A DNA stretch of 64,000 bases from Microbispora sp. H13382 (lineage in GTDB: Bacteria; Actinomycetota; Actinomycetes; Streptosporangiales; Streptosporangiaceae): contig NZ_JABBXA010000010.1 of the NCBI RefSeq assembly GCF_014161445.1, forward strand, positions 186,001 through 250,000, in the 5' to 3' direction. The notes under the pieces are model-generated. The model saw nothing but the letters and a program-made list of their open reading frames with translations. It was not told the origin of the DNA and made no database searches. The position numbers and the translations under genes were made by a program. Shown in pieces: positions 25,799 through 33,828 of the stretch (its first letter is position 1; the number at the start of each line of letters is the position of its first letter).

Positions 25799-26881
25799 CT
25801 ACGACGCGAGCGTCTCGTACAGCGCGATGTGCCGTTCGGCGGCGGCCGGCCAGGTATGGCGTGCGGCGAGCGCCCGGCCCGCCGCACGCCTGCCGGGATC
25901 GGCGAAGCCGAGGGCGTCGGCGAGCTCGGCGGCGAGGGCGCCAGGGGTGGCGGCGAAGCGCGCGGCGGAGCCGAAGACCTCACGCAGGACGGGCAGGTCG
26001 CGCACCACCAGGGGGACGCCCGCCGCCAGGGCCTCCATCGCGGCGAGCCCGAAGCCCTCCTTCACCGACGGGAAGGCGAAGGCGCCCGCGCCCGCCACGA
26101 GCGGCGGCAGGTCCGGGTCGATGACCGGGCCGAGCACCGTCGGCTCGACGCCGAGTTCGGCCGCCCGGGCCTCCCACCGCGCGCGGTAGCCGCGGTAGTC
26201 GAAGAGCGTCTCACCGCCGGCGATCACCAGCTGGACGTCCGGGCGCGCCTCCCGCAGCAGCGCGTACGCCTCCAGCAGGTCGAGCGAGCCCTTGCGCGGC
26301 TCGATGCCGCCGACCGTCAGGACGTACGTCCCGAGCCGCCGGCGCCACATCCGGGTGGCGACCGGATCGGCGGACGCGAAGCGCTCGTACGCGACGCCGT
26401 TGGGGATCACCGCCGCCGTGATGCCCCACCCGGCCGCGAGCTCGGCCGCCACCGCCGCCGACACGCAGACGTGCGCGTACGGCGTGACGATGGCGCGCTC
26501 GTGGCAGGCGGCCAGCTCGGGCGTGGTGAAGTGGTCGACGTGGTGGACGGTCCGTACGCACCGGCCCGCCGCGTTGGCGCTGATGCAGTCCTGGGCGTGC
26601 ACGACGTCGTAGGACGCCGCCTCCGGGGCGAACGCCCTGCGCAGCACCGCGATCGACCGCAGCACGCGCGGGCCGACGCCCTCCCCGGCGATGCCGGGGA
26701 ACGGCACGACGCGCAACCGCACGGCCGGGTCGACCGGGCGGAAGAAGCCCGCGTCGCCGCCCCGGCCGAGCGTCCACACCGTCACCTGCTGCCCCGCCGC
26801 CGCGAGCGCCTCGGCGAGGGCGAGGGTGTGCACGACCCCGCCGCGGGGCCTGGTCGAGTAGCTGAGCAGCGCGATTCTCAC
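25799..26881 (-). CDS. GT4 glycosyltransferase, MSMEG_0565 family
   Basis: 360-aa GT-B fold enzyme: N-terminal RIALLSYSTRPRGGVVHTLALAE, C-terminal nucleotide-sugar site around PSVKEGFGLAAMEALAAGVP, whose E-x7-E is typical of family GT4. The match to the MSMEG_0565 family rests on length, the N-terminal pattern and the conserved gene neighbourhood. The GTG start overlaps the upstream nitrilase-like gene by 4 bp. A glycosyltransferase is a regular member of this nitrogen-starvation cluster and may glycosylate its unknown product; that is inference. Confidence 0.85.
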   Translation of the reverse strand: MRIALLSYSTRPRGGVVHTLALAEALAAAGQQVTVWTLGRGGDAGFFRPVDPAVRLRVVPFPGIAGEGVGPRVLRSIAVLRRAFAPEAASYDVVHAQDCISANAAGRCVRTVHHVDHFTTPELAACHERAIVTPYAHVCVSAAVAAELAAGWGITAAVIPNGVAYERFASADPVATRMWRRRLGTYVLTVGGIEPRKGSLDLLEAYALLREARPDVQLVIAGGETLFDYRGYRARWEARAAELGVEPTVLGPVIDPDLPPLVAGAGAFAFPSVKEGFGLAAMEALAAGVPLVVRDLPVLREVFGSAARFAATPGALAAELADALGFADPGRRAAGRALAARHTWPAAAERHIALYETLAS

Positions 26882-27714
26882 CCGCGCGCCTCCCGGTAGA
26901 CGTCGGCCCTGCGCTCGTGAAGGTGATGGAGGATCCGCCGGGCGCGGTCGATCTCGGCGGCGACGTCGAGCTCGGCCACGGCCAGCCCGGCCTTCGACCA
27001 GGTGCGGGCGAGCACGTCACCGCCCGGGCCGACGACCTTGGCCTGGCCCAGGAAACGCATGCCGCCCATCACGCCGGTCTGGTTGGAGGAGGCGAGCACG
27101 ACCTGGTTCTCGGCGGCCCGCGCCTGGTCGTACAGGTCGAAGAGCCGCGACTGCCGGTCCTGGGCCATCCGGGGCGCGCGGTTGGTGACGCTGGCGGGCC
27201 ACGCCGACAGGCACGCCAGGATCTGCGCGCCGTCGAGCGCGAGGCTGCGGGCCGACTCCGGGAAGGTCTTGTCGTAGTCGATCAGCATGCCGATCCGCCC
27301 GGCCGGAGTGTCGAAGGCGTCGAACCGGCCGCCCGGACCGTAGGCCGCGGTCTCGCCCGCGGGCAGGTGGACCTTGCGGTGCAGGCCGAGCACCCCGTCG
27401 CCGCTGACGCACACGGCCGCGTTGTAGCGGACGTCGCCGCCGTCCTCGCAGAAGCCGACGCACACCACCATCTCGGCGGCCAGCGCCGCCACCCGCGCGA
27501 TCACCGGGTCGTCGGGCTTCAGCGCGGGCGGCAGCGCGTCGGGGTCCGGCCGGCGCAGGTCGGCGAGGTAGCCGCCGAGCGCGGCGTCGGGCAGCACGAG
27601 CAGCCGGGCGCCCGCGGCGCGGGCGTCGTCGATCAGCTTGGCGATGCGGGCCAGGTCGAAGGCGAGGTCGCGGCCGAAGTGGGCGGCCGCCGCGGCGATC
27701 CGCAGGACGCTCAT
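26878..27714 (-). CDS. Nitrilase-fold protein lacking catalytic Cys and Glu
   Basis: 278-aa carbon-nitrogen hydrolase-fold protein, a close paralogue of its upstream neighbour: the two align without gaps through residue 53. The triad is altered. The Glu position is Asp43 (LPDAALGGY), Lys114 is kept (GLHRKVH), and the nucleophile position is Asp146 (GMLIDYDKTFPE) where ICYD is expected. The codons GAC for both Asp residues were checked on the complementary strand. It is therefore unlikely to act by the thiol mechanism and is probably a structural or regulatory partner of the active copy, or a repurposed enzyme. Overlaps both neighbours by 4 bp. Confidence 0.9.
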   Translation of the reverse strand: MSVLRIAAAAAHFGRDLAFDLARIAKLIDDARAAGARLLVLPDAALGGYLADLRRPDPDALPPALKPDDPVIARVAALAAEMVVCVGFCEDGGDVRYNAAVCVSGDGVLGLHRKVHLPAGETAAYGPGGRFDAFDTPAGRIGMLIDYDKTFPESARSLALDGAQILACLSAWPASVTNRAPRMAQDRQSRLFDLYDQARAAENQVVLASSNQTGVMGGMRFLGQAKVVGPGGDVLARTWSKAGLAVAELDVAAEIDRARRILHHLHERRADVYREARG

Positions 27715-28538
27715 GCCCCGTACGTCTCCGGCCGGCGGTCGCGCAGGTGCCCCATCGACCGGCGCGCGGTCTCCAGCGCCCGCGGCACGTCGATATCGGC
27801 GACCGCCGTGCCGGGCCCGACGCCCGTCGCCGAGACGATCTCGCCGCCTGGGTCCACGACCTTCGCGCTGCCGACGAAGCGCAGCGACCCGAACGTGCCC
27901 GCCTGGTTGGCCGACAGCCACACGATCTGGTTCTCCAGCGCCCGGGCCCGGTCGAACAGGTCGAAGCGCCGTTTCCAGCGGTCCCGCTCCAGGTCCCGCG
28001 CCGCGTTCGTGCGCGAGCCCGGCCAGGCCGACACGCACACCCCGATCTGCGCGCCGTCGAGGGCCAGCGCGCGGGCGGACTCCGGGAACGCTTTGTCGTA
28101 GCAGATCATCATGCCGATCCTGCCGACGGGTGTGTCGAAGGCGCGGAAGCCGTCACCCGAGGCGTAGCTGGCGTTCTCGCCGAGCGGCTGGTGGACCTTG
28201 CGGTGGTTGCCCAGCACGCCGTCGCCGCTGACGCACACCACGCTGTTGTAGCGGGCGTCGCCGCCGTCCTCGCAGTAGCCCGCGACCACGACCATGTCGC
28301 CGGCCAGCGCGGCCAGCCGCCGGATCTCGGGGCCGTCCACGGCGAGCGGGGGCGGCCCGGCGTCCGCCGCGTCGCCGTCGAGGCTGAGCAGGTAGCCGCC
28401 GAGGCACGCCTCGGGCAGCGCGAGGAGCCGCACGTCCTCGTTGCGCGCCTCCTTGATGAGGCGTCCGGCGATTCCGAAGTCCTCCTCGAGGTCGCGGCCG
28501 AACGCGGCCGCCACCGCCGCCATGCGCAGGGCGCTCAC
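27711..28538 (-). CDS. Nitrilase-superfamily carbon-nitrogen hydrolase (active copy)
   Basis: 275-aa hydrolase of the nitrilase/amidase superfamily with an intact triad: Glu43 (LPEACLGGY), Lys114 (GNHRKVH) and Cys146 (GMMICYDKAFPE). The ICYD form is more usual in aliphatic amidase/carbamoylase branches, whereas true nitrilases often have CWEN, so amide, carbamoyl or nitrile substrates are all open. In related clusters (nit1C) the nitrilase is linked to cyanide or nitrile nitrogen use. GTG start overlapping the upstream gene in GTGA. Likely partner of the inactive paralogue encoded immediately downstream. Confidence 0.9.
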   Translation of the reverse strand: MSALRMAAVAAAFGRDLEEDFGIAGRLIKEARNEDVRLLALPEACLGGYLLSLDGDAADAGPPPLAVDGPEIRRLAALAGDMVVVAGYCEDGGDARYNSVVCVSGDGVLGNHRKVHQPLGENASYASGDGFRAFDTPVGRIGMMICYDKAFPESARALALDGAQIGVCVSAWPGSRTNAARDLERDRWKRRFDLFDRARALENQIVWLSANQAGTFGSLRFVGSAKVVDPGGEIVSATGVGPGTAVADIDVPRALETARRSMGHLRDRRPETYGA

Positions 28539-29986
28539 GCGGTCCCCAATCCGGTCACCGGGCCGCCGACGGCCTCCGTGACCTGTCCATCGGGCCAGCG
28601 CAGCCAGACGCCCCGGCCGGTGGTCAACTCCCCGCACACCGCCGAGGCGGCCGGCCCCGCCGGAGGCGCCGGCGCGCCCGGCTCGTCCGCCGTGAGCATC
28701 GCGAAGCCGGGAAAGCAGGTGAGCCAGTCGCCCGTGGAGGCGGCGGCCGGGCGGGGCACCGCCGCCACGTCCAGCACGGCCGCGCAACCGCTCGCCTCGG
28801 CCAGCATGCCGAGCGTGCCGGCGATCCCGGCCATCGACACGTCCTTGGCGGCAGCGGCCGCGCCGGCCGCGACCGCACCGAGCATCACGCGCAGCTCGTC
28901 CGTACGCCGGGAGGTGGTCGAGTCCCATTGGCGGCCCCGGTATCCGGCCCGCCAGCCGCCGCCGAGGTCCGCCGTGAGGCGCACCTCGTGGCCGGGGCGC
29001 CCGCCGCCACCCGGCACGGGACGCGCGGCGCGGCCGAGCGCGGTCACCGACAGCGCGGCCGGCACCCCGAGCTGCGTGTGCCCGCCGAGCACCGGCACCC
29101 CGTACGCGCGGGCGGCCCGCGCGAGGCCGTCCAGCACCCGGGCGGCGTGCGCGGCGTCGGGGGCGGCGAGCGCGTCGAGCAGCCCCGCCGGGGCGGCGCC
29201 CATCGCGGCCAGGTCGTTGAGGTTGACCAGGACCGAGCACCAGCCGGCCCATTCCGGGTCGCGTTCGACCATGGACGGCACGATCGCGTCGCAGGCGGCG
29301 ACGACGTCGCTGCCGGGCACCGGCGCTCCGTCGTCGCCGGTGAAGCCCGGGCCGCCGAGGGCGTGCGGGACCTGTCCGGCGAGGGCGGCGAGCAGCGGGC
29401 CGAGCGCCGACTTCGCCGCCGCGGCCTGGGCCGCGATCCGGCCGATCGGGTGGCGCATCAGCACGTGCGGCGCGCCCGCGACCGTCACCGGCCGCACCCG
29501 CGTCCACCCCAGGCGGCGGAAGAACGCCTCGGCCCCGGCCCGCACGCTCGCCTCGAAGCGCAGCACGCCCTCCGCCTCGGCGCGGGCGCACGCGGCCCGC
29601 ACCAGCGCCGCGCCGGCGCCCCGGACGCCGCGCGCGGCGGGTGCCACGACCAGGCGCCCGCCCGTCCACCAGCCGATGTCGGGGCCGTCGCAGGCGGGCC
29701 CGAGCCGCACGCCGCCGACGACCGTGCCCGCCGGGTCCCTGGCCACCAGCGTGACCGTGCGGGGGTCGTCGTCCCTGTCGTCGAGGTCGTGCCCGTCGAA
29801 CAGCCCCTGCTCCCGGACGAACGCCTCGTGCCGCAGCCGCCGGTAGGCGCGAAGGGACGCGGCGTCCGCGGCCTGCTCGATCCGTAGGCCGGGGCTGCGG
29901 GCGAGCGTGCTGTGGTCGCCGAGCAGCGCGAGGATGTCGGGCGCCTCCTCCCGCGCCGGGGCCCGAGTGTTCCCGTCGAGGTACAT
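28535..29986 (-). CDS. MSMEG_0567/Sll0787-type GNAT-AIR synthase fusion
   Basis: 483-aa fusion. The N-terminal third (about 20-165) is a GNAT-like acetyltransferase (AYRRLRHEAFVREQGLF; VVAPAARGVRGAGAALVRAA). The remainder is an AIR-synthase/selenophosphate-synthase-like ATP-binding domain (DDGAPVPGSDVVAACDAI; VNLNDLAAMGAAP; VPVLGGHTQLGV). In cyanobacteria and some nit1C clusters these are two genes; the mycobacterial-type fusion is retained here. The reaction is unknown; AIR-synthase-like domains phosphorylate amides or acids for ring closure or sulfur or nitrogen transfer. ATG start 7 bp after the radical SAM stop. Confidence 0.87.
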   Translation of the reverse strand: MYLDGNTRAPAREEAPDILALLGDHSTLARSPGLRIEQAADAASLRAYRRLRHEAFVREQGLFDGHDLDDRDDDPRTVTLVARDPAGTVVGGVRLGPACDGPDIGWWTGGRLVVAPAARGVRGAGAALVRAACARAEAEGVLRFEASVRAGAEAFFRRLGWTRVRPVTVAGAPHVLMRHPIGRIAAQAAAAKSALGPLLAALAGQVPHALGGPGFTGDDGAPVPGSDVVAACDAIVPSMVERDPEWAGWCSVLVNLNDLAAMGAAPAGLLDALAAPDAAHAARVLDGLARAARAYGVPVLGGHTQLGVPAALSVTALGRAARPVPGGGGRPGHEVRLTADLGGGWRAGYRGRQWDSTTSRRTDELRVMLGAVAAGAAAAAKDVSMAGIAGTLGMLAEASGCAAVLDVAAVPRPAAASTGDWLTCFPGFAMLTADEPGAPAPPAGPAASAVCGELTTGRGVWLRWPDGQVTEAVGGPVTGLGTA

Positions 29987-29993
29987 CGGCGCC

Positions 29994-31058
29994 TCACCCG
30001 CCCGCCGCGCTCAGCACACCGCACGCACCGCAGGCCGCGCAGCCCGCCCCCTGGTCCGCGCCGCGCATGCCGGCCGCGCGCAGCAGCGCCGCCACGCCCT
30101 CGGTGACGTACGTCAGCAGGGCGGCGCCGGGCGCCCCGATGCCGTCGCGGGCGGCGAGCGTGCCCCGCATCGGGCGGAACGGGACCACGAAGGGGTAGAC
30201 GCCGCGCCGGATGAGCCGGCCCGCGCCCGCGATCAGCTCGTCGGGGTCCTCGCCCAGCCCCACCAGCAGGTACGTCGAGACGCGGTTGCGCCCGAACACC
30301 CGGACCGCCTCGTCCCAGGCGGCCTCGTAGCCGGCGAGCGGCACCGACGACTTGCCCGGCATCCAGCGCCGCCGGACCTCCTCGTCCAGCGACTCCACGT
30401 GGATGCCGATCGCGGTGGCCCCGGCCTCGCGCAGCGCGCCGATCCAGGCCAGGTCGCCCGGCGGCTCGCATTGCACCTGGATCGGCAGGTGCGGCACGGC
30501 GTCCAGCACGCCGCGCACGCACCGCGCCAGAGCGCGCGCGCCCCGATCGGGCCCGGTGGTCGTGCCGGTGGTCATCACCATCTGCCGTACGCCGTCGAGC
30601 CGCACCGCCGCCTCCGCCACCTCGGCGAGCTGGGCGGGCGTCTTGGCGGCGACCGTGGCGCCCGACCGCAGCGACTCCTCGATGGTGCAGAAACGGCAGC
30701 GGTCGGCCTCGCCGTACCGGACGCACGTCTGCACGACGGTCGTGGCGAGCACGTCCGCGCCGTGCAGCCGGGCGATCTTCTCGTAGGGGACGCCGTCGGC
30801 GGTGGTCAGGTCGTAGAACCTCGGCCGCCGCACGGGCACCAGCGAGACCCCGGTGTCCTGGTCGCCGAGCCAGACCGTGCCGTCGCGCACCGTGTAGGGG
30901 CTGCCGGGGTCGACGGGCAGTGCCGCGCCGGCGCCGTCCACGAGGACGTGGCCGTCGCCGCTCGGCCCCGCGCCGTCCGGCCGCCGTACGGGCGTGTCGA
31001 AGGCCACGCCGCGCAGGGCCAGTTCGGCGCGGGTCATGATCCGCAGATCGACGGTCAC
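29994..31058 (-). CDS. Radical SAM protein, MSMEG_0568 family
   Basis: 354-aa radical SAM enzyme. The cluster-binding cysteines are atypically spaced, C112-x8-C121-x2-C124 (TCVRYGEADRCRFC), a form expected for this family rather than the usual CX3CX2C. An extra Cys cluster near the C-terminus (GCAACGACG) could bind a second iron-sulfur centre. The family is found only in this cluster type and its reaction is unknown. GTG start 4 bp after the Sll0783-like gene stop. Confidence 0.88.
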   Translation of the reverse strand: MTVDLRIMTRAELALRGVAFDTPVRRPDGAGPSGDGHVLVDGAGAALPVDPGSPYTVRDGTVWLGDQDTGVSLVPVRRPRFYDLTTADGVPYEKIARLHGADVLATTVVQTCVRYGEADRCRFCTIEESLRSGATVAAKTPAQLAEVAEAAVRLDGVRQMVMTTGTTTGPDRGARALARCVRGVLDAVPHLPIQVQCEPPGDLAWIGALREAGATAIGIHVESLDEEVRRRWMPGKSSVPLAGYEAAWDEAVRVFGRNRVSTYLLVGLGEDPDELIAGAGRLIRRGVYPFVVPFRPMRGTLAARDGIGAPGAALLTYVTEGVAALLRAAGMRGADQGAGCAACGACGVLSAAGG

Positions 31059-31062
31059 GGCA

Positions 31063-31578
31063 CTACAGCTGGTAGGTGGAGTTGATGACGGCGCCCTTGC
31101 GGGCGTAGTGGATCAGCGCGTCCTGCACGTCCAGCGGGTGGGTCGGGATCACGCCCTCGATGAGGTCCTCCTCGCGGGCGCCGTGCAGGGACAGGCCGAA
31201 CCGGCAGCAGTAGACCTTCCCGCCCTCGGCGATGAACGTCTTGAGCTGGTTGTTGATGTTGTGCTCGCCCGGGAACGCCGAGTTGCCTGTCGTCGGGAAG
31301 CCGCGGGTGGCCAGGCAGTTCAGCGAGCCCGGGCCGTAGAAGTAGATGGCGGTCTCGAAGCCCTTGCGCAGTGCGCGGGTGGCCTGCAGCACGGCCACGA
31401 AGCTGACCGACGACTCGTGCGCGATGCCGTGGACGAGCGTGAAGTACGACTCTCCGTCCTCGGCCTTGTAGTCGGGGAAGACCTTGGTGCTGCCGTAGAT
31501 GCTGGAGCCCTCGGGCAGGGACGGATGGGGGATCTCGCCCATGCTCTTCTTCTCGAGGTCGGTCAGGTCGACGGACAT
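31063..31578 (-). CDS. MSMEG_0572/Sll0783 family nitrogen-starvation protein
   Basis: 171-aa cytosolic protein with a DsrE-like character (TRALRKGFETAIYFYGPGSLN; VYCCRFGLSLHG). It is the marker protein of this gene cluster; the cyanobacterial homologue Sll0783 is known to be induced by nitrogen deprivation. The adjacent cysteines in YCCRF are striking for sulfur or persulfide chemistry, but no function is established. AAGGAGAG precedes the ATG at 31578; the gap to the upstream amidohydrolase is 25 bp. Confidence 0.9.
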   Translation of the reverse strand: MSVDLTDLEKKSMGEIPHPSLPEGSSIYGSTKVFPDYKAEDGESYFTLVHGIAHESSVSFVAVLQATRALRKGFETAIYFYGPGSLNCLATRGFPTTGNSAFPGEHNINNQLKTFIAEGGKVYCCRFGLSLHGAREEDLIEGVIPTHPLDVQDALIHYARKGAVINSTYQL

Positions 31579-31603: not shown

Positions 31604-32428
31604 TCAGTCGTAGAGGGAGGCGAAGGTGCCGCGGAAGACGAGCGCGCCCAGCTCGCCGTCCCCGGCCGCGGCGCGCATCCGGGCGTGCTCGCCCGCGAAG
31701 TCGCCCCACGGCTGGTCGCTGGCGAACAGCACGCGGTCGTGCCCGAGGCCGCGCCGCTCGATCTCCCGGGCCAGCCAGTAGGGCGCGAAGCCGATGGCCC
31801 AGGACAGGTCGGTGTAGACGCGCTTGCCGGCCGTGATCCAGTCGAAGAACCGGGAGCCGGCCAGCTTGACGTGGCCGCTCATACCGCCGCCGAAGTGCAC
31901 GAGGTGCACCGGCACGCGGTCGGCGTACCACTCGACCAGGTGCCCGACCTCGTCGACGTCCGAGGCGGCGCCGGGGGAGGTGTGGACGTGGACGACCAGG
32001 CCGTGGCGTTCGGCCGCGGCGAAGATCCGGTCGAGGCCTGGACGGCAGGCGGGGTCGGTGGAGCGGCCGCCGAGCAGGAAGCTCAGCTTCAGCGCCCGCA
32101 CGCCCCGCTCGCCCGCCAGACCGAGGGCGCGGGAGGTGCGTTCCTCGTCGCGGGGCAGCGGCGAGACCCACAGCCCGGCGCGGATCCGGTCGTCGGCCTG
32201 CGCGGCCTCCAGGACGAGATCGTTGAGCGCGAAGGCGACCGCCGGGTCCGGTACGCCGTAGTTGGGCAGCACCAGCGCACGCTCCGTGCCCTCCGCGTCG
32301 AGGTCGGCGATCAGCTGCCTGACCGTGGCCCGCGCGGTGACGTCGGGGTTGACCGCGGGGCCGCCGTAGAAGGGATGGGCGGGCAGTACGCCGATGTGGC
32401 GGTGCGCGTCGAAGACCATCCGGCTCAC
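31604..32428 (-). CDS. Amidohydrolase family protein (TIM-barrel)
   Basis: 274-aa amidohydrolase_2-like TIM-barrel. Metal motif variant DAHRHIG at the N-terminus, then VHVHTS, LVHFGG and FASDQPWGDF as later metal and catalytic strands. The family includes decarboxylases and hydrolases of cyclic or aromatic acids. The GTG at 32428 was chosen because it overlaps the upstream stop in GTGA, like most junctions in this operon; an ATG at 32419 is possible. It is not part of the core nit1C set I recall and may tailor the cluster's product. Confidence 0.85.
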   Translation of the reverse strand: MSRMVFDAHRHIGVLPAHPFYGGPAVNPDVTARATVRQLIADLDAEGTERALVLPNYGVPDPAVAFALNDLVLEAAQADDRIRAGLWVSPLPRDEERTSRALGLAGERGVRALKLSFLLGGRSTDPACRPGLDRIFAAAERHGLVVHVHTSPGAASDVDEVGHLVEWYADRVPVHLVHFGGGMSGHVKLAGSRFFDWITAGKRVYTDLSWAIGFAPYWLAREIERRGLGHDRVLFASDQPWGDFAGEHARMRAAAGDGELGALVFRGTFASLYD

Positions 32429-33765
32429 CCGACCGGCAGGGCGGGGGAGAGCTCGGCGGGCGCGCCGGTCAGCGCGCCGCACACGTCGGCGAGCCGCCGG
32501 GACGCCTCGATGTGGCCGGCCAGGAACTCGGCGTCCCGGCCCACCGCCTCGAACCGGCCGGAGCCCCAGGTGTGCTGCCAGGGCAGCCCGAGGAAGTAGA
32601 GCCCGGGACAGTTCGTGACGCCGCGCCAGTGCATCGGATAGCCCCGGCCGTCGAAGGCGGGGATCTCGATCCAGCGGTGGTCGCGGGTGAACCCGGTCGC
32701 CCAGACGACCGAGGTGATCCCGGCCGCCGCCGGGTCGAGGGAGCGTACCGGCCCGTCCGGTTCCCACACCGGCACGTAGCGGGGCTCGGCGGGGGCGTCG
32801 ACGCCGCGCGCCGCGATGTACGCGTCGATGGCGTCCTTGATCCCCTCGGCCACGGCGTCGGCCCGGTCGAGGTTGTCCTTCAGGTCGCCGGCGAACTCCA
32901 GCGTCGTGCCGGTCACGCCGGTCAGCCGGCCGTACAGGCGCATCCCGTCGCGGGCGAAGGCCCGCAGGTCGATGTCGCGCCCGCCGTCGCGGCCCGTGAC
33001 GTAGTGGTTGGCCCGCAGGCGTACGGCGTCCGCGTCGTCGAACTCGTCGATGCTCCTGGCGTAGTGGCCCATGTCGTGCAGCCACGCCACGCAGTCCCGG
33101 CCCCGGTAGAAGCGGGCGACCCGGGGCGCGCTCCCGACGGCGAGGTGGACCCGGCGCCCGGCGAGATGCAGGTCCTCGGCGATCTGGCAGCCCGACTGCC
33201 CGGTGCCGATCACGAGGACCTCGCCTTCGGGAAGCTGCGCGGGACGGCGGTACCGCGAGGAGTGGATCTGCTCGATCCCCGCGGGCAGTCGTTCCGCCAG
33301 CCGGGGGACGGAGGGCGCGTGGTAGGGGCCGGTGGCCACCACGATCTGGTCGGCGGTGAGGTCCCCGGCGGTGGTCGCGAGCTCGAACGTCCCGCTCGCG
33401 GCCCTCCGTAAGCGGGTGACGCGCACGCCCTCGGCGAGCGGGGGCCCGAAGGAGGCGGCGTAGTCCTCCAGATAGCGGACGATCTCCTCGCGGACCATGA
33501 AACCGTCGGGATCGGGCCCGGGGTAGGGGAAGCCCGGCAGGTCGCACTGCCAGTTGGGCGTCACCAGGCAGAAGGAGTCCCAGCGGCGCTCGCGCCATTC
33601 GTGCCCGACCCGCCGCGCCTCGATGACGACGTGCTCGATGCCGCGCCGGCCCAGGCAGTGGCTGACCGACAGCCCGGCCTGGCCGCCGCCGACGACCGCG
33701 ACGGGGTGGTGCGCCCCGGCGATCCGCGGTGTGCTGGTTTCCGCCGCCGCTTGCATGACGGCCAC
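32425..33765 (-). CDS. Flavin-dependent oxidoreductase, MSMEG_0569 family
   Basis: 446-aa flavoprotein monooxygenase-like enzyme: FAD motif VVGGGQAGLSVSHCLGRRG near residue 27, NADPH-type motif VLVIGTGQSGCQIAEDL in the middle, and VVWATGF near the C-terminus. This layout is shared with Baeyer-Villiger and N-hydroxylating monooxygenases. It is the first gene of the ten-gene run; a GlnR-like box lies 48 bp upstream. The start is either GTG 33765 or ATG 33756; neither has a strong ribosome site. Confidence 0.9.
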   Translation of the reverse strand: MAVMQAAAETSTPRIAGAHHPVAVVGGGQAGLSVSHCLGRRGIEHVVIEARRVGHEWRERRWDSFCLVTPNWQCDLPGFPYPGPDPDGFMVREEIVRYLEDYAASFGPPLAEGVRVTRLRRAASGTFELATTAGDLTADQIVVATGPYHAPSVPRLAERLPAGIEQIHSSRYRRPAQLPEGEVLVIGTGQSGCQIAEDLHLAGRRVHLAVGSAPRVARFYRGRDCVAWLHDMGHYARSIDEFDDADAVRLRANHYVTGRDGGRDIDLRAFARDGMRLYGRLTGVTGTTLEFAGDLKDNLDRADAVAEGIKDAIDAYIAARGVDAPAEPRYVPVWEPDGPVRSLDPAAAGITSVVWATGFTRDHRWIEIPAFDGRGYPMHWRGVTNCPGLYFLGLPWQHTWGSGRFEAVGRDAEFLAGHIEASRRLADVCGALTGAPAELSPALPVG

Positions 33766-33812: not shown

Positions 33813-33828
33813 GTTACCGCCACGTCAC
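33813..33828 (-). promoter_or_regulatory. GlnR-type box upstream of the nitrogen-starvation operon
   Basis: On the coding strand the sequence is GTGAC-GTGGCG-GTAAC, matching the gTnAC-N6-gTnAC form of actinobacterial GlnR sites, with an extra GTCAC five bases further upstream. It sits in the intergenic region in front of 33765. Its fit with a nitrogen-starvation cluster supports GlnR control, but binding is inferred. Confidence 0.6.

Follow-up and report, generated by a model that had tools for sequence, protein, structure and literature searches.

The nitB gene of Microbispora sp. H13382 appears, from its sequence, to encode an old and widespread pseudoenzyme paralogue in the nitrilase superfamily, of which the open-access literature that we searched holds no earlier report. 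It looks like a selected protein and not like a decaying copy. The window, by which we mean the whole stretch of DNA analysed here, comprises 64,000 nt of contig NZ_JABBXA010000010.1 (positions 186,001-250,000, forward strand). In it, nitB lies between its Cys-bearing paralogue nitA and a glycosyltransferase gene, in a cluster with the following features.

25799-26881, minus strand: MSMEG_0565-family glycosyltransferase (GT), overlapping the nitB stop; NCBIfam match
26878-27714, minus strand: nitB, paralogue of nitA, 278 aa
nitB residues, minus strand: D43 at 27586-27588, K114 at 27373-27375, E121 at 27352-27354, D146 at 27277-27279
27711-27714, minus strand: ATGA overlap of the nitA stop and the nitB start, 4 bp
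27711-28538, minus strand: nitA, Cys-bearing nitrilase-fold (amidase-like) protein, 275 aa, GTG start
nitA residues, minus strand: E43 at 28410-28412, K114 at 28197-28199, E121 at 28176-28178, C146 at 28101-28103
28535-29986, minus strand: MSMEG_0567-family fusion of a GNAT and an AIR-synthase-like domain; NCBIfam match
29994-31058, minus strand: MSMEG_0568-family radical SAM protein (rSAM); NCBIfam match
31063-31578, minus strand: MSMEG_0572/Sll0783-family nitrogen starvation response protein (M0572); NCBIfam match
31604-32419 (start approximate), minus strand: amidohydrolase-like protein, named from its sequence
32425-33765, minus strand: MSMEG_0569-family flavin-dependent oxidoreductase (FMO), first gene of the cluster; NCBIfam match
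33813-33828, minus strand: GlnR-box-like GTGAC-N6-GTAAC upstream of the first gene, a candidate site

An earlier note on this DNA had described the two hydrolase-like genes as adjacent, overlapping paralogues with E43-K114-C146 in one and D43-K114-D146 in the other, and the coordinates, the 4-bp overlap and a gapless alignment with 158 of 273 residues identical (58%) bear this out. The BLASTP E value of 5e-106 rules out a chance alignment. Both products match PF00795 far above its cut-off of 23.2 (138.5 bits for nitA, 121 bits for nitB), which places them in the nitrilase (CN-hydrolase) superfamily. The Glu-Lys-Cys set required in that superfamily is present in nitA as E43, K114 and C146; nitB has D43, K114 and D146 in its place and would therefore be a member of the fold but not of the usual active kind. 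E121, which we take to be the fourth catalytic-type residue, is common to the two. Residue numbering is tied to structure 6ypa, a C146A variant of the P. horikoshii amidase, whose mutated position aligns with D146 of nitB. With a conserved fold, a lost catalytic residue and retention by selection, nitB can be classed as a probable pseudoenzyme. The nearest named relative of nitA, among the matches listed, is from Microbispora rosea (95%).

Neither protein is the Nit6803 nitrilase of nit1C clusters: against the TIGR04048 cut-off of 502.6 the pair scores 33.5 and 30.3 bits, whereas the Pantoea and Paraburkholderia nitrilases used as controls score 572.7 and 581.3. The top NCBIfam match of both nitA and nitB is N-carbamoylputrescine amidase, below its own cut-off, so that "amidase-like" is a safer term than nitrilase. 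Together with the Pyrococcus and Nesterenkonia amidases, this enzyme is among the best structural and sequence matches and resembles the window pair in fold and pocket; these proteins share about 27% identity with nitB and differ from it in that the natural enzymes bear the Cys that nitB lacks.

The pair is common in actinobacterial MSMEG_0572 clusters and is not peculiar to the Microbispora sp. H13382 genome. We searched a family sample of 200 genomes (E 1e-30 for nitB) and a class sample of 394 (1e-40), together with a phylum sample of 396 and an order sample of 200 that overlaps the others; a collection of at least 80 named loci was drawn from the matches listed. Genes were labelled A or B by the better tblastn match. 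An operon gene labelled B in one genome (L220, G731) was not counted as nitB because it carries E-K-E-C at positions 43, 114, 121 and 146 and falls outside the nitB clade, and five remote hydrolases labelled B (two in L123, one in L124, two in L125) were also left uncounted. In the family sample 38 of 200 genomes matched nitB; both genes are present in 35 of these, nitB alone in one (G032), and the other two have remote hydrolases only. In the class sample 49 of 394 matched: 32 carry both genes, 16 nitA only and one (G293) nitB only, with nitB present in ten coded families. Thus nitB is accompanied by nitA in 35 of the 36 nitB-bearing genomes of the family and in 32 of the 33 of the class, and nitA occurs without nitB in 16 of the 48 nitA-bearing class genomes. 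Nine of the 396 phylum genomes matched (five with both genes, four with E-K-E-C copies only), as did 28 of the 200 order genomes, with two matches in each. Among the matches listed in the named collection, nitB is found in 79 of 80 loci and is open in 78. The pair is also found on four Rhodococcus plasmids, every one with an E-K-E-C and a D-K-E-D copy.

The MSMEG_0572 gene occurs in 60 of the 394 class genomes, including all 48 that bear nitA. The other 12 have neither nitA nor nitB (G292, G315, G323, G331, G416, G433, G461, G468, G479, G495, G545 and G583), and no Nit6803 nitrilase scored above the cut-off in these or in nine further genomes (0 of 21). Some genomes of the coded group g103 have a second MSMEG_0572 gene elsewhere. 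MSMEG_0572 homologues of about 46% identity are frequent on Klebsiella plasmids, which make up 374 of the 515 plasmid records that match. In two nitA-only genomes a different FAD-dependent monooxygenase-like gene lies between nitA and the GT gene (L105, 9410-11113; L106, 9474-11105), occupying the place of FMO and/or nitB.

The earlier note had proposed that positions 43, 114 and 146 be compared in other MSMEG_0572-type clusters with two such genes, and 131 distinct paired genomes were found (from 145 nitA-nitB pairs, 67 in genomes and 78 in named loci, after near-duplicates were dropped; a locus with a frameshifted nitB, L158, was excluded). In nitA, K114, E121 and C146 are each present in 131 of 131 and E43 in 130, the remaining sequence being truncated and without residue 43. 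In nitB, K114, E121 and D146 are each present in 131 of 131, and neither Cys at 146 nor Glu at 43 occurs in any. The retention of K114 in both paralogues, seen by the earlier note in one genome, holds across all 131. Its claim that both substitutions strike catalytic positions has to be qualified: D146 never changes in this set, but at position 43, where most of the 131 have D (122), G (7), Q (1) and H (1) also occur, so the two substitutions are under unequal constraint. Glycine is found in L051, L054, L060, L064, L066, L069 and L071, glutamine in L099 (8250-9050; G565) and histidine in L149. A nitB from outside the class (G959; L227, 1486-2286) has D at 121 and keeps D43, K114 and D146. Codon 146 is TGC or TGT in nitA and GAC or GAT in nitB, and two base substitutions therefore separate C146 from D146.

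In a tree of 104 rows, the 36 nitB rows form one clade (100/97, with the bootstrap not fully settled), whose nearest neighbours are E-K-E-C sequences from outside the class (96/81); relative to these sequences nitA is not one clade. The simplest reading is that C146D arose once and was then long retained, and the swap would predate the parting of several actinobacterial families. Evidently nitB is under purifying selection: its median omega is 0.157, against 0.201 for nitA (Nei-Gojobori, 63 non-overlapping pairs, dS being rough at this G+C content), and is the lower of the two in 43 of the 63 independent pairs. In 1968 of the 2211 comparisons between genomes, which are not independent of one another, nitB also shows higher conservation than nitA.

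These results bear on the idea that nitB is a decaying duplicate. Some traces of loss do exist: the L158 copy is frameshifted, the sole disrupted one among the 79 nitB-bearing named loci in the matches listed; Saccharopolyspora shandongensis (L179) has no nitB; and some lineages carry nitA alone. The invariance of D146, K114 and E121, the low omega, the slower change of nitB than of nitA and the intact reading frames of the named loci nonetheless lead us to reject decay, which is refuted as a general account. Second copies with Cys146 and frequent frameshifts, which the earlier note had named as signs of simple decay, were sought among the 80 named loci in the matches listed; none has two Cys-bearing copies in one cluster, and the L158 frameshift is the only one. 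The view of that note that the pattern reflects selection and not random decay is upheld, with a single origin of the nitB clade behind it. Expression also speaks against decay if MSMEG_0566 of M. smegmatis is nitB (PMC4222082, PMC4617892 and PMC6039565, in their accessible parts).

The M. smegmatis system in question is the gpr operon, MSMEG_0565-0572. As described in the accessible part of PMC6039565, its eight genes are expressed in biofilms and needed for GlnR-dependent peroxide resistance, with the roles of single genes unsettled. Like the window cluster, it combines the MSMEG_0572, 0569, 0568, 0567 and 0565 families with two carbon-nitrogen hydrolase genes; in the window all five family models score above their NCBIfam cut-offs, which makes this a gpr-type cluster. 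From gene order we infer that MSMEG_0571 is nitA and MSMEG_0566 is nitB. In the available text of PMC4222082, nitrogen starvation raises MSMEG_0571 48.04-fold and MSMEG_0566 8.94-fold, and GlnR binds upstream of MSMEG_0572; under nitrogen limitation the increases given in the available text of PMC4617892 are 4.06-fold and 2.96-fold. The accessible part of PMC6039565 terms MSMEG_0566 a putative aliphatic amidase and is silent there on the lost Cys. The gene order of the operon differs from that of the window (FMO-amidohydrolase-M0572-rSAM-GNAT/AIR-nitA-nitB-GT). Five genomes of one coded family (f6) carry E-K-E-C and D-K-E-D copies, four in the MSMEG-like order M0572-nitA-FMO-rSAM-GNAT/AIR-nitB-GT or one close to it (L077, for example) and G509 in another.

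According to one proposal, selenocysteine is inserted at the UGA of MSMEG_0571 and translation runs on into the next genes (PMC6039565, accessible part). In the window, the nitA TGA overlaps the nitB start (27711-27714), which suggests ordinary translational coupling instead. The same 4-bp overlap (spacing -4) recurs in 54 of the 131 pairs and likewise suggests coupled translation; the spacing is 30 bp or less in 101. The candidate GlnR box at 33813-33828 was called with the general GlnR-box consensus. It is the one such site in the window, where 0.64 are expected by chance. A GlnR box as a general feature of the cluster is unsupported, given that chance rate per window and the occurrence of a site upstream in 2 of 73 named loci among the matches listed (Microbispora rosea and Microbispora hainanensis; 0.24 expected).

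The nit1C cluster of Pseudomonas, Pantoea and Paraburkholderia resembles the window in uniting M0572, rSAM, GNAT, AIR-like and FMO genes in one operon, in a nitrogen assimilation setting (PMC11049912, in its accessible part). It differs in that the Pantoea and Paraburkholderia clusters have one nitrilase, of the Nit6803 family, to which the window pair does not belong. The statement in the earlier note that canonical nit1C clusters have a single nitrilase was correct for these two proteobacterial clusters.

AlphaFold gave confident monomer models of nitB (pLDDT 91.4, pTM 0.91) and nitA (88.4 and 0.89, with residues 122-128 poor); each of the input alignments also contained a few sequences of the other paralogue. 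In Foldseek the nitB model matches nitrilase-superfamily amidases, 6ypa being among the best; by their titles, 6ypa, 4izs and 5ny7 are Cys-less variants of related amidases with bound amides. Eight positions are fixed differently in nitA and nitB. Helix 187-203, which is present in both models and which we take to belong to the superfamily's dimer interface, carries four of the eight (188, 191, 195 and 201). Not every "B-specific" residue of the helix arose with the pair, since the nearest Cys-bearing relatives outside the class have Q188 in 6 of 6 and A201 in 2 of 6, as nitB does; the argument from position 188 is weakened accordingly. In paired nitA, 90 positions show conservation of 97% or more; in 17 nitA-only sequences, four of these positions (89, 194, 195 and 231) drop below 50%. 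The helix holds two of these four and 11 of the 90, a relaxation that counts only as a hint because the 17 sequences come from few lineages.

A single origin, the invariance of D146, K114 and E121, purifying selection and an operon shared with nitA in nearly every nitB-bearing genome are shown by the data. The account that we tentatively prefer, at a little under an even chance, casts nitB as a catalytically silent subunit in a complex with nitA. As an ancient, selected paralogue whose Cys nucleophile has been lost, it would be incapable of the thioester chemistry of the superfamily. It retains the fold, the residues K114 and E121 and a good part of the pocket, where the invariant D146 could form a salt bridge with K114. 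It would join nitA in a hetero-oligomer by way of the helices at which nitrilase-fold proteins dimerize and may set stability, specificity or regulation, perhaps as a binder of amides that it does not cleave. The near-constant co-occurrence of the genes, their 4-bp overlaps, the differences on helix 187-203 and the Cys-less, amide-bound structures all argue for such a subunit, as does the existence of heteromeric nitrilases in sorghum (PMC5154151, accessible part). There, NIT4A and NIT4B are two paralogous nitrilase-fold subunits that act together; they are plant branch-1 nitrilases, whereas nitA and nitB are an actinobacterial amidase-like pair. In the literature searched, most of it open-access, we found no account of a natural nitrilase-fold pair with one live and one dead member.

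Other results argue against assembly with nitA. Mirror-tree comparison of 72 loci gave no support for a special nitA-nitB interaction (r 0.707, partial 0.070, below several other gene pairs), nitA lacks nitB in the 16 class genomes noted above, a gap of over 300 bp separates the two genes in 24 of the 131 pairs, and nitB occurs without nitA in G293 and G032. The constant neighbour of nitB is the GT gene, directly downstream in 123 of the 125 loci (a set to which some genomes contribute more than one locus), and not nitA; the upstream neighbour varies (nitA in 97, FMO in 21, GNAT-AIR in 4). Selection, as the earlier note read the pattern, is borne out; the partnership with nitA and the new metal- or acid-based chemistry that it offered as reasons are conjectural. 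These observations could be accommodated if nitB functioned independently of nitA, either binding a ligand as a sensor or scaffold or pairing with some other product of the cluster, for instance GT or FMO. Its best mirror-tree partner is FMO (0.729; partial 0.193), with GT next by partial correlation (0.125), and G or Q at position 43 suits binding better than acid-base catalysis. The orphan nitB of G293 (L075, 8028-8816) retains D43, K114, E121 and D146. Weighing against a separate role, only two nitB-bearing genomes of the family and class samples lack nitA, and GT occurs without nitB in A-only lineages and in Paraburkholderia. As the evidence for and against pairing is mixed, we regard a separate role as somewhat unlikely, and it seems rather unlikely that nitB runs a new chemistry, based on aspartate or dependent on a metal, in its inherited pocket. 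Such a chemistry would explain why D146 is invariant, where random change at a position that had simply lost its nucleophile would be expected to leave a mixture of residues, and would fit the equally invariant K114 and E121 and the two base substitutions required for C146D. However, the would-be general base at position 43 is G, Q or H in nine of the 131, so that three pocket carboxylates are not always present for a metal, and literature searches found no Asp-type member of the superfamily.

The two genomes with nitB alone differ in kind. In G293, listed as 98% complete, nitA is absent and no other cluster gene lies in the 17.6 kb that hold nitB; among five genomes of its family, G293 alone has such an orphan. 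In G032, nitB (D-K-E-D) lies in a shortened cluster that is possibly misassembled.

A bolder form of the subunit reading can be imagined, in which an obligate live/dead nitA-nitB hetero-oligomer stands at the heart of the gpr/MSMEG_0572 pathway, with Asp146-Lys114 as a mimic of a ligand or intermediate or as the seat of an aspartate reaction new to the fold; we consider this unlikely. The recognition of nitB corrects existing annotation, in which "carbon-nitrogen hydrolase family protein" (PGAP) and, if MSMEG_0566 is nitB, "aliphatic amidase" (M. smegmatis) hide an Asp in the place of Cys. It also gives a direct handle on the MSMEG_0572 pathway, which is strongly induced in nitrogen starvation and confers peroxide resistance in M. 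smegmatis.
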